A stretch of 64,000 bases of DNA from Candidatus Rokuibacteriota bacterium. Its GTDB lineage: Bacteria; Methylomirabilota; Methylomirabilia; Rokubacteriales; CSP1-6. The DNA is taken from assembly GCA_016193045.1 (NCBI GenBank), contig JACPSW010000012.1, positions 1 to 64,000 of the forward strand, written 5' to 3'. This document shows positions 29,337 to 59,364 of the stretch, piece by piece. The position numbers and the translations under genes are program-made. Each line of letters starts with the position of its first letter. Position 1 is the stretch's first letter. The notes beneath the pieces were generated by a model, which searched no databases, was not told where the DNA came from, and saw only the letters and a list, made by a program, of their open reading frames with translations.

Positions 29337-29492
29337 GCATTATTCACGAACCATAGTCGAGTGTAGCCGGCGGGGCCTGTCGCAGGGCGCAGCCCCCGTG
29401 GGTCCGGCTCCGTCACCCACTGCGCGCGGCCCCGTGGGGACTGCACCCCGCGCCACCCGCCCGGTCGCGCCATCGCCGTTCGTGAATAATGC
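29337..29492. mobile_element. MITE-like element with 15-bp perfect terminal inverted repeats
   Basis: GCATTATTCACGAAC (29337-29351) and its exact reverse complement GTTCGTGAATAATGC (29478-29492) flank 126 bp of GC-rich, potentially folding sequence with no gene. The AT-rich ends stand out from their surroundings. No clear target duplication is seen. The right end reaches to 4 bp from the stop codon of the flavoprotein gene, and the left end lies 37 bp after the secreted-protein gene. Confidence 0.6.
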
Positions 29493-35640: not shown

Positions 35641-35657
35641 CCGCTGCCTCGCGCCCG

Positions 35658-35728
35658 TTCGAGCGCCGGCTTTGCCGGCGCAACCCTCGGGGGGAGGTAT
35701 CGGAAGGGGGGCGGAGCCCCCCTCCGAG
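35658..35728. repeat. Two-module palindromic intergenic repeat (full copy)
   Basis: The left module (35658-35685) has a perfect 8-bp stem GCGCCGGC/GCCGGCGC with loop TTT; the right module (35701-35728) folds as CGGA-a-GGGGGGC, loop GGA, GCCCCCC-TCCG. The same two modules in the same order occur at 63160-63254, and the left module alone at 22140. Lying between the binding-protein and permease genes, the hairpins could attenuate or protect the upstream message. Confidence 0.75.
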
Positions 35729-53320: not shown

Positions 53321-53965
53321 ATGATTTATGAGCTGCGGACCTACACGCTGATCCCCGGCACGCAGGCCGAGTACCTCCAGCTCTCGCGCGACATCGGGCG
53401 CAAGGTCCGCGGCGACAGGTACGGCAAGCTCGAAGGCGCCTGGACGACCGAGTTCGGCACCCTGAACCAGTACGTGCACCTCTGGAGCTTCGCCGATCTG
53501 AACGAGCGGGAGCGGCTGCGCCGGGCGCTGGGGCAGGACGAGCGATGGACGAAGGAGTACCTCCCGAAGATCCGCCCCCTGTTGCTCGCCCAGGAGAACA
53601 AGATCCTGTACGCCGTGGACGGCGTTCCGCTCACGCGCCCCATCGGCGTCGGCAGCCACGTGTTCGAGCTCCGGACCTATCGGACCCACGTGGGCAAGGC
53701 GCCCGCGTGGCTCGGCCACTTCAAGGAGATTCTGCCGGTCCGGGAGAGACACTCGAAGATCGTCGGCATGTGGACCACCGACGTCGCCCAGCTCAACCAG
53801 GTCGTCCATCTCTGGGCGTACAACGACCTGAATCACCGCGCCGAGGTGCGCGCGAAGGTCATGCAGGAGCCGGAGTGGCAGGCGTTTCTCAACAAGGGAT
53901 TACCGCTGCTGGCGGAGATGCAATCCATCATTCTGACTCCGACGGAAACGTCGCCGCTCAAGTAG
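53321..53965 (+). CDS. Double NIPSNAP-domain protein inside the nuo operon
   Basis: A 214-residue protein made of two NIPSNAP repeats (about residues 1-104 and 112-213). Each begins with an ELRTY strand (YELRTYTLIPG, FELRTYRTHVG) and has a matching middle (GAWTTEFGTLNQYVHLWSFADL, GMWTTDVAQLNQVVHLWAYNDL), showing internal duplication of a ferredoxin-like dimeric alpha/beta barrel fold. Biochemical roles of bacterial NIPSNAP proteins are poorly known. It sits between nuoC and nuoD, 9 nt after nuoC and 3 nt before nuoD, so it is certainly co-transcribed with complex I. Confidence 0.88.
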   Translation: MIYELRTYTLIPGTQAEYLQLSRDIGRKVRGDRYGKLEGAWTTEFGTLNQYVHLWSFADLNERERLRRALGQDERWTKEYLPKIRPLLLAQENKILYAVDGVPLTRPIGVGSHVFELRTYRTHVGKAPAWLGHFKEILPVRERHSKIVGMWTTDVAQLNQVVHLWAYNDLNHRAEVRAKVMQEPEWQAFLNKGLPLLAEMQSIILTPTETSPLK

Positions 53966-56629: not shown

Positions 56630-57120
56630 GCCTCGAGGCGGCGGGCTTCTGGGGGCTGGCCCTGGTGCTCCTGGCCTCCAGTCTCGCCGTCGTCCTTTCC
56701 AAGAATCTCTTCCACTCGGTCCTCTACCTGGCCGTCGCGCTCGTCGCCACGGCCGGCGTGTTCCTCCTCCTCCAGGCCGAGTTCCTGGCCGCGGTCCAGG
56801 TCCTCCTCTACGCCGGCGGCGTGGTCACGATCGTGGTCTTCGCCATCGTGGTCACGGAGCGGCTGGTGGGGGAGCGGCTGGCCCAGACCAACCGGGGCGT
56901 CTTCACCGGGGGCCTCGTCTCCCTCGTCGTGCTGGTCATCCTGGTGCTCTCCCTTTGGCGCGCGGACCTCCCCCGGACCGCGCCCCCCCCGCCGGCGGAT
57001 CTGACCCAGGCCATCGGGCGCGACCTCCTGACCCGCTTCGTGCTCCCGTTCGAGCTCCTGGCGGTGCTCTTCCTGGCGGGGCTCCTCGGCGCGCTCTTCT
57101 TCGCGCGGAAGGAGGAGTGA
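56626..57120 (+). CDS. nuoJ: NADH-quinone oxidoreductase subunit J
   Basis: A 164-residue membrane subunit with five hydrophobic segments; landmarks NLFHSVLYLAVALVATAGVFLLLQAEFLAAVQVLLYAGGVV (the pi-bulge TM3 region, residues about 24-64). GTG 56626 overlaps nuoI (GTGA), and its TGA shares an A with nuoK. Confidence 0.93.
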   Translation: MSLEAAGFWGLALVLLASSLAVVLSKNLFHSVLYLAVALVATAGVFLLLQAEFLAAVQVLLYAGGVVTIVVFAIVVTERLVGERLAQTNRGVFTGGLVSLVVLVILVLSLWRADLPRTAPPPPADLTQAIGRDLLTRFVLPFELLAVLFLAGLLGALFFARKEE

Positions 57121-57419
57121 TGGGGCTCCAGCCCTACCTCATCCTGGCGGCCTGCCTCTTCACGATCGGCCTCTTCGGCGTCTTGACGCGGCGGAACGCC
57201 ATCGGGATCCTCCTGGGCATCGAGCTGATGCTGAACGCGGTCAACGTGAATCTCGTCGCTTTCGCGCGCTTCACGGGCGAGACGGCGGGACTGATCTTCA
57301 CGCTGTTCACCATTTCCATCACCGTCGCCGAGGTCGCGCTGGGGCTTGCCATCGTCATTTTGATCTTCCGGGTCCGGCGCACGGTGGAAGCGGATCAGTT
57401 GCATCTCTTAAAAGGCTGA
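57120..57419 (+). CDS. nuoK: NADH-quinone oxidoreductase subunit K
   Basis: A 99-residue three-helix MrpC-like subunit. The proton-channel glutamates are visible in LLGIELMLNAVNVNLVAF (about residues 31-48) and TVAEVALGLAIVI. The last codons already belong to the first unit of the 16-bp tandem repeat that fills the space to nuoL. Confidence 0.95.
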   Translation: MGLQPYLILAACLFTIGLFGVLTRRNAIGILLGIELMLNAVNVNLVAFARFTGETAGLIFTLFTISITVAEVALGLAIVILIFRVRRTVEADQLHLLKG

Positions 57420-57536
57420 TTTCACTAAAGGCTGATTTCACTAAAGGCTGGTTTCACTAAAGGCTGATCTCACTAGGCTGAGTTCACGAAGGGCTGAGTT
57501 CACGAAGGGCTGAGTTCACTCAAAGGCTGATCGCGC
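57411..57536 (+). repeat. 16-bp tandem repeat array between nuoK and nuoL
   Basis: Eight consecutive units of the type AAAGGCTGATTTCACT: units 1 and 2 identical, 3 and 4 with single changes, 5 shortened to 14 bp, 6 and 7 of the form AAGGGCTGAGTTCACG/T, and a last diverged unit ending at 57536. The array starts within the nuoK stop region and ends 4 bp before the nuoL ATG. Every unit contains TGA and an AAGG core. Confidence 0.93.
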
Positions 57537-57540
57537 CCAC

Positions 57541-59364
57541 ATGAATGCCGGCACGCTGGCCCTGGCGGCCCTGGGGCTGCCGTTTTGCTCGTTCGTCCTC
57601 TTGGCGGTGGCGCTCCCGCTCCGGCGCGCCGGCCGGGCCGCCGGGGCCCTCTCCATCGCCGCGATCGGCGGCTCCCTCTTGGCCTCGCTGGTGCTCTGGC
57701 GAACGCTTCCGGGCGAGAGCGTCGAGCTGACTTGGACGTGGCTCCCCGCCGAGGGCGGGCCCATGGCGACCGTGGGCATCCTCGTGGACCACTTGACCGC
57801 GAGCATGCTCGTCCTGGTGGCGCTCGTTTCGTTCCTCGTCCAGCTCTACTCGCTGGGCTACCTGGAGCACGAAACGCCGCCCGCCCTCGGCCGCTACTAC
57901 GCCTACCACTCGCTCTTCGCGTTCTCGATGCTGGGCCTGGTCCTCGCCTCGAACTTCCTCCAGATGTTCATCTTCTGGGAGCTCGTCGGGCTCTGCTCCT
58001 ACCTCCTGATCGGCTTCTGGTACACGAAGCCCGAGGCGGCGCGGGCCGCGGTAAAGGCGTTCTGGGTGACGAAGGCCGGGGACCTCGGCTTCATCATCGG
58101 CATCGTCCTGCTCTGGGGGCAGGCCGGAACCTTCCAGTTCTCCCGCCTCTTCCAGATGGCGGGGGACAGGACGCTGCCGACGGCGGGGCTCGCGCTCATC
58201 ATGTTCCTCATCTATCTGGGGGCCGTGGGCAAGAGCGCCCAGTTCCCCCTGCACGTCTGGCTCCCGGATGCCATGGAGGGGCCCACCCCGGTCTCCGCCC
58301 TGATCCACGCCGCCACCATGGTGGCGGCCGGCGTTTACCTCGTCAGCCGCGTCTATCCGCTCTTCCTGCTGACGCCCGACGTACTGGCGCTGATCGGCTG
58401 GGTGGGGGCCTTCACCGCGCTCCTCGCCGCCACGCTGGGCCTCGTCCAGGCCGACATCAAGCGGGTCCTCGCGTACTCCACGGTCTCCCAGCTGGGGTTC
58501 ATGATGGCGGCGCTCGGGGCCGGCGCGAGCGACGCGGGATTCTTCCACCTCTTGACCCACGGCCTCTTCAAGGCGCTCCTCTTTCTCGGCGCGGGCGCGG
58601 TGATCCATGCGGTGGGCACCAACGACATCTGGCAGATGGGGCGCCTCGCCCGCGCGATGCCCCAGACGATGATCGTCTTCCTCGTGGGGACTCTGGCGCT
58701 CGCCGGGATCTGGCCGTTCGCCGGCTTCTTCTCCAAGGATGCGGTGCTCGCCGGCGTCTGGGAGGGCGGGCTTGCGATCCCCTTCCTGATGCTGGCGCTC
58801 AGCGTCTTTCTCACGGCCTTCTACATGTTTCGCGTCGTCTTTGTCGTGTTCTTTGGTCCCCGCCACGCGGAGGGGCATGCCCATGACGCCCCGCCGGTGA
58901 TGGCGGCGCCGCTCTGGATTCTGGCGGTCCTCACCGTGGGCTGGGGGATCGGCCTGGCGACCCGCGGCGGGGGCGAAAAGGCTCACGGGCCGGAGTGGGT
59001 GCCGTGGCTCGCGACGGCGCTGGCCGTGGCCGGCATCGGCTTCGCCTGGCTCACCTACCAGAAGCGCGTGGTCACCCCCGAGACGCTGGCGCGGGCCTTC
59101 GCGCCGGTCTACACGGCCGCCGTCGGCAAATTTTGGCTCGACGACCTCTACGGCGGCCTCTACCGCAGCACCCTCCTCGGCTTCTCGCGCCTCGTGGGAT
59201 GGGTGGACCGGTACCTGGTGGACGGCCTCGTGAATCTGGCCAGCGCCTGGACGCTCCGCTGGGGCGACGGCCTCCGGCGGATCCAGACCGGGCGGGCCCA
59301 GGACTACCTCTACGGCATCGCCTTCGGTCTCCTCCTCGTCATCGTCTGGGGTTACTGGCGCTGA
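57541..59364 (+). CDS. nuoL: NADH-quinone oxidoreductase subunit L
   Basis: A 607-residue antiporter-like proton-pumping subunit with about 15-16 membrane segments. Landmarks: ETPPALGRYYAYHSLFAFSMLGLVLASNF, FWELVGLCSYLLIGFWY, the TM7-8 region VGKSAQFPLHVWLPDAMEGPTPVSALIHAATMVAAGVYL and DIKRVLAYSTVSQLGFMM. The C-terminal lateral helix is short. Upstream sequence CAAAGG in the last tandem repeat unit may be its ribosome site. Its stop overlaps nuoM. Confidence 0.95.
   Translation: MNAGTLALAALGLPFCSFVLLAVALPLRRAGRAAGALSIAAIGGSLLASLVLWRTLPGESVELTWTWLPAEGGPMATVGILVDHLTASMLVLVALVSFLVQLYSLGYLEHETPPALGRYYAYHSLFAFSMLGLVLASNFLQMFIFWELVGLCSYLLIGFWYTKPEAARAAVKAFWVTKAGDLGFIIGIVLLWGQAGTFQFSRLFQMAGDRTLPTAGLALIMFLIYLGAVGKSAQFPLHVWLPDAMEGPTPVSALIHAATMVAAGVYLVSRVYPLFLLTPDVLALIGWVGAFTALLAATLGLVQADIKRVLAYSTVSQLGFMMAALGAGASDAGFFHLLTHGLFKALLFLGAGAVIHAVGTNDIWQMGRLARAMPQTMIVFLVGTLALAGIWPFAGFFSKDAVLAGVWEGGLAIPFLMLALSVFLTAFYMFRVVFVVFFGPRHAEGHAHDAPPVMAAPLWILAVLTVGWGIGLATRGGGEKAHGPEWVPWLATALAVAGIGFAWLTYQKRVVTPETLARAFAPVYTAAVGKFWLDDLYGGLYRSTLLGFSRLVGWVDRYLVDGLVNLASAWTLRWGDGLRRIQTGRAQDYLYGIAFGLLLVIVWGYWR

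Follow-up and report, generated by a model that had tools for sequence, protein, structure and literature searches.

A tandem repeat array built on the nuoK stop codon and the nuoL Shine-Dalgarno-like sequence in the complex I operon of a Rokubacteria genome

Intergenic minisatellites, or variable-number tandem repeats (VNTRs), are familiar from bacterial MLVA typing as short head-to-tail units that grade into variants and differ in number between close relatives. MIRU units, which are longer (roughly 50–100 bp), are dispersed as a family. Arrays of MIRUs lie between neighbouring genes of one operon in the senX3-regX3 gap of the Mycobacterium tuberculosis complex and M. leprae, and this gap has been reported to drive senX3-independent regX3 expression (PMC4213456). 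Tandem repeats in M. tuberculosis also arise from duplicated promoters, for which phase-variable copy number and variation within populations have been documented (PMC12817950). We analyzed a 64,000-nt stretch of DNA (the window) in which a 16-bp array lies between nuoK and nuoL of a complex I operon. The host genome, a Rokubacteria MAG of 3.86 Mb in 181 contigs (G000), belongs to a soil or groundwater bacterium, and a search of the literature for tandem repeats or repetitive elements in Rokubacteria found nothing. The array is like bacterial VNTRs in its short head-to-tail units, its graded variants, and its unequal number among close relatives, but its variation is known between species only. 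It resembles the MIRU arrays in its place between neighbouring genes of one operon, but differs in having a 16-bp unit, in carrying the full unit at one locus, and in that no promoter-like sites were found in 57000–58000. As in the M. tuberculosis promoter repeats, the unit is made of a local gene-control element and its copy number changes; here, however, the repeated segment is a stop codon/Shine-Dalgarno (SD) junction, and copy number varies between rather than within species. The kind of repeat is thus already known, and its setting is a respiratory operon of an understudied phylum. We consider it likely (probability of about 0.78) that the array is a genuine, lineage-specific intercistronic minisatellite in which an ancestral stop/SD segment was duplicated and then expanded, with probable loss of coupling.

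The nuo genes are arranged on the plus strand in the order nuoA-B-C-[NIPSNAP]-D-H-I-J-K-L-M-N; the identities of nuoJ, nuoK, nuoL, and NIPSNAP were checked with Pfam, the remaining nuo names being assigned from gene order and sequence. Seven junctions overlap (A/B, D/H, H/I, I/J, J/K, L/M, and M/N) and three are short gaps (B/C, 4 nt; C/NIPSNAP, 9 nt; NIPSNAP/D, 3 nt), leaving the 121-nt nuoK-nuoL gap as the sole long junction in the operon, in line with the preliminary description, which had the other junctions mostly overlapping. The array spans 57411–57530 and consists of seven full units and a 9-nt partial unit of AAAGGCTGATTTCACT (Table 1). Its core, AAAGGCTGA, plays two parts: it encodes the last two codons of nuoK (AAA GGC, Lys-Gly) and the stop TGA, and at the same time it constitutes the SD-like sequence for nuoL. 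The preliminary description had counted eight units filling the whole gap, each with a TGA and an AAGG. The count of eight stands if the partial unit is included; the array begins inside nuoK and stops 10 nt short of nuoL, occupying the rest of the gap; and both motifs are present in most units, but unit 3 lacks the TGA and unit 5 the AAGG. The units fall into two types, one comprising units 1–4 and the other units 5–7, which together with the two identical units on the nuoK side agrees with the gradation described earlier. Two side observations concern complex I genes. The NIPSNAP-family gene lies inside the operon in the nuoC-nuoD interval (window 53321–53965; Pfam PF07978, E 8e-52), and alignments of this DNA with G002 and G016 show no large gap. 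A further nuoK-like gene, 47% identical, is located downstream at L130 (G000:C105:95011-95289) on the same contig, suggesting that another operon of complex I-like or antiporter type is present.

Table 1. Features of the nuoK-nuoL junction, in window coordinates; G001 is a third species of the genus, and CSP1-6 is the closest relative
Feature	Position	Strand	Description
nuoK	57120..57419	+	99 aa, C-terminal end LLKG-stop; Pfam PF00420, E 2e-27; last 9 nt AAAGGCTGA, the core of unit 1
Repeat unit 1	57411..57426	+	AAAGGCTGATTTCACT; includes nuoK stop TGA 57417-57419
Repeat unit 2	57427..57442	+	AAAGGCTGATTTCACT; identical to unit 1
Repeat unit 3	57443..57458	+	AAAGGCTGGTTTCACT; TGG replaces TGA
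Repeat unit 4	57459..57474	+	AAAGGCTGATCTCACT
Repeat unit 5	57475..57488	+	14 nt, AGGCTGAGTTCACG; short spacing as in second unit of G001
Repeat unit 6	57489..57504	+	AAGGGCTGAGTTCACG
Repeat unit 7	57505..57521	+	17 nt, AAGGGCTGAGTTCACTC
Partial unit 8	57522..57530	+	AAAGGCTGA; SD-like sequence nearest nuoL; identical to single copy of CSP1-6
Spacer	57531..57540	+	10 nt, TCGCGCCCAC; identical in array-less CSP1-6; nuoL ATG at 57541
nuoL	57541..59364	+	607 aa; Pfam PF00361, E 4e-81, and PF00662

The array received a TRF score of 156 with a period of 16 or 177 with a period of 62, compared with 55 for the next-best row in the window and a top score of 76 (mean 53) in 60 dinucleotide shuffles of the window, upholding the original observation of a 16-bp tandem array within the complex I operon. 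The array has a GC content of 46.7%, the window one of 69.1%, and only 0.17% of 120-bp windows are equally AT-rich. The baseline for tandem repeats across the genome was a 383-kb sample comprising the window and a further 319 kb. The full repeat unit was found nowhere else in the G000 genome, and what recurs is an 11–14 nt core at two further intergenic places, rather than the same unit at many loci as in MIRU-like dispersed repeats. As expected of a minisatellite or VNTR, the locus has head-to-tail tandem units in the range of about 10–100 bp beyond chance, and the number of units at the same site is unequal among close relatives.

The closest relative is Candidatus Rokubacteria CSP1-6 (L032), with a nuoK 97% identical; other Rokubacteria MAGs are also among the nearest in the genome collection. 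Within the genus, three species were compared with one genome per species, namely G000, CSP1-6 (which has the same nuoK-nuoL junction as G002, L003), and G001 (L005, L034). Trees of the flanking DNA group G000 with G002 (support 100/100 upstream and 99/99 downstream); G001 is placed next to this pair in the upstream tree only (93/94), its position being left unresolved by the downstream tree. The CSP1-6 junction has a single copy of AAAGGCTGA followed by the same spacer and ATG, so that its gap is 10 nt; it reads TTAAAAGGCTGA-TCGCGCCCACATG, which is the window locus minus the repeats, cut exactly between two copies of AAAGGCTGA. The G001 junction, AAAGGTTGATTTCACTGGGCTGATC, contains two units, shares TTTCACT with the window, and has the short second spacing noted for unit 5. 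Three species of one genus thus have 1 (CSP1-6), 2 (G001), and 8 (G000) units, and these numbers, together with the identical units on the nuoK side, favor the simple expanding minisatellite that had been one of the readings first offered. The array looks to have grown recently, starting from the nuoK end. The unit pattern was absent from other genera among 57 family genomes. A match to the motif in G001 at C135 lies within an apparent long coding frame and was judged to be due to chance.

Across the Rokubacteria junctions examined, the nuoK-nuoL gap is mostly 1–13 nt, and several genomes have inserts of 110–186 nt, mostly containing hairpin elements unrelated to the array. In L041, from another genus (junction as in L016), the gap holds an unrelated insert and, after it, 27 nt of the nuoK 3' end repeated with one mismatch, an arrangement in which the stop of nuoK and the start context of nuoL are again both retained. 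Insertions in several lineages indicate that the nuoK-nuoL junction accepts them, in at least some cases retaining a copy of the common stop/SD segment on either side.

Under the minisatellite reading, AAAGGCTGA would in the ancestor have formed the end of nuoK and, lying 10 nt before the nuoL ATG, would also have provided the SD-like region for that gene. A short tandem duplication with a unit of 14–16 nt and an added TTTCACT would then have arisen within the genus, and replication slippage, as we infer, or unequal recombination could have produced about eight units here, with loss in the sister species. After every such duplication, nuoK would still finish with its stop and nuoL would still be preceded by its SD-like context. 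Expansion may have been tolerated for this reason, whereas most other insertions would disrupt one or the other. The simplest history would be a two-unit ancestor with contraction in CSP1-6 and expansion in G000; independent gain is also possible. The array may be actively varying in length within species, the variation seen so far being that between the three species. If this account is right, the locus would illustrate clearly how a junction in which stop codon and SD overlap may constrain the insertions that an operon accepts: both genes remain functional when their common segment is duplicated, and gaps of this type can therefore grow into arrays.

The nuoL start lies within about 13 nt of the nuoK stop in most relatives, a spacing that fits translational coupling. 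According to a review, coupling is strongest when stop and start are separated by −4 to +3 nt, and there is little or none beyond 30–40 nt in several systems; some E. coli constructs kept it at +50 to +350 nt (PMC12548453). At a spacing of 121 nt, nuoK-nuoL coupling is probably reduced. Tight stop-start coupling would have been lost, nuoL probably being initiated de novo and independently from the AAAGG of the last unit, and the remaining units would be neutral or weakly modulating.

An improbable alternative gives those units a dedicated function: their AAGG cores would be tandem SD sites or standby sites for ribosomes, and the nuoL:nuoK ratio would depend on how many units are present, in the manner of a VNTR rheostat. 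Were nuoL supply altered by unit number, the stoichiometry of complex I could follow from the repeat count. AAGG is retained in seven of the eight units, and nuoL's own SD-like sequence is the seed, but the AAAGG of the last unit is 14 nt from the nuoL ATG, a long spacing, and CSP1-6 manages with one unit. The in-silico cost of opening the nuoL RBS is 13.7 kcal/mol for a single unit and drops to 9.7–10.7 kcal/mol for five to eight; the natural junction of CSP1-6 has a lower cost still (5.2 kcal/mol). This predicted change with unit number is modest, and we regard it as neutral, speaking neither for nor against a modest tuning role. The array region is AT-rich, as such a role might favor, but its RNA fold is ordinary (z = +1.1 compared with shuffles). 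Complex I subunits are required in fixed stoichiometry, given which a rheostat has no obvious benefit, and there is no positive evidence for a regulatory role of the array.

A counterpoint to purely local slippage is that part of the array sequence recurs in two other operon gaps. This recurrence raises a second alternative, which we consider unlikely, that operon gaps of this lineage received copies of a short sequence around CTGATTTCACT(N)AAA, which is prone to tandem duplication there. The whole genome has five copies of the word CTGATTTCACT, each of them located in an operon gap or at the start of a gene: two in the nuo array, two in the ilvB-ilvN gap, and one between hslU and argB (the names ilv, arg, and hslU were assigned from sequence without a family search). 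The shared word is short, with about 0.04 copies of the 11-mer expected in the 383-kb sample or roughly 0.4 when scaled to the genome, so that two extra loci would be only mildly surprising if the longer match were left aside. That longer pattern gave eight matches at ≤2 mismatches, seven of which are at these three places, against zero in the reversed control, but it was found post hoc, having been extended after it was seen. The ilvB-ilvN gap is the top tandem repeat in the 319 kb sampled outside the window, and its unit is duplicated in the sister G002 as well; the exact 11-mer, however, is absent from both G001 and G002, and the motif in nuo is oriented oppositely, relative to transcription, to that in ilv and arg. 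The argB copy overlaps a possible upstream GTG start of argB and may be partly coding. Because the word is short and was extended after its sighting, a common seed for the nuo, ilv, and arg motifs is regarded as no more than possible. The bolder proposal, that a lineage-specific CTGATTTCACT(N)AAA entered the nuo, ilv, and arg gaps and nucleates junction duplication, leading to repeat-number-dependent uncoupling of housekeeping subunits, strikes us as very unlikely. The ilvB-ilvN array itself, at L127:1450-1570 (G000:C178:78472-78592), consists of repeats of about 27 bp with CTGATTTCACT and is absent from G001.

Short repeats are prone to misassembly and the MAG is in 181 contigs, but an assembly artefact is extremely unlikely given the ordered differences among units, an array length below that of a typical read, and the two-unit version with the same TTTCACT in the MAG of another species (G001).

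Several other candidates were tried and set aside. A structured RNA or riboswitch leader was rejected, with no Rfam match and a fold no stronger than that of shuffles; two terminator-like sites considered as internal terminators are both inside nuoL and at chance level; and the repeat string had no match in a viral collection, where a mobile element of viral contigs was sought. Two further dispersed elements were observed in the window. The first, at 35657–35728, is a two-hairpin element of about 70–90 bp, GTTCGAGCGCNGGCTTNGCCNGCGCAA ... GGGGGAGG ... followed by a second GGGGGGC/GCCCCCC hairpin, with other copies at L129:1954, L133:10016, L141:6444, L142:899 (minus strand), and L144:12611 (minus strand). 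Its window copy matched no Rfam family at threshold, and its exact core occurs 34 times in the G000 genome and in 48 of the 57 family genomes, compared with 0 in the reversed control. This element is also found in the nuoK-nuoL and ilvB-ilvN gaps of other genera; in both L007 and L033 it stops immediately short of the start codon. The second, TTATTCACGAA, is present at window positions 29340 and 29479 and in L130, L133, L137, L140, and L144, the 383 kb containing 10 copies in all. Its copies in the window and L137 are arranged as inverted pairs about 140–190 bp apart and resemble the termini of a small inverted-repeat element.
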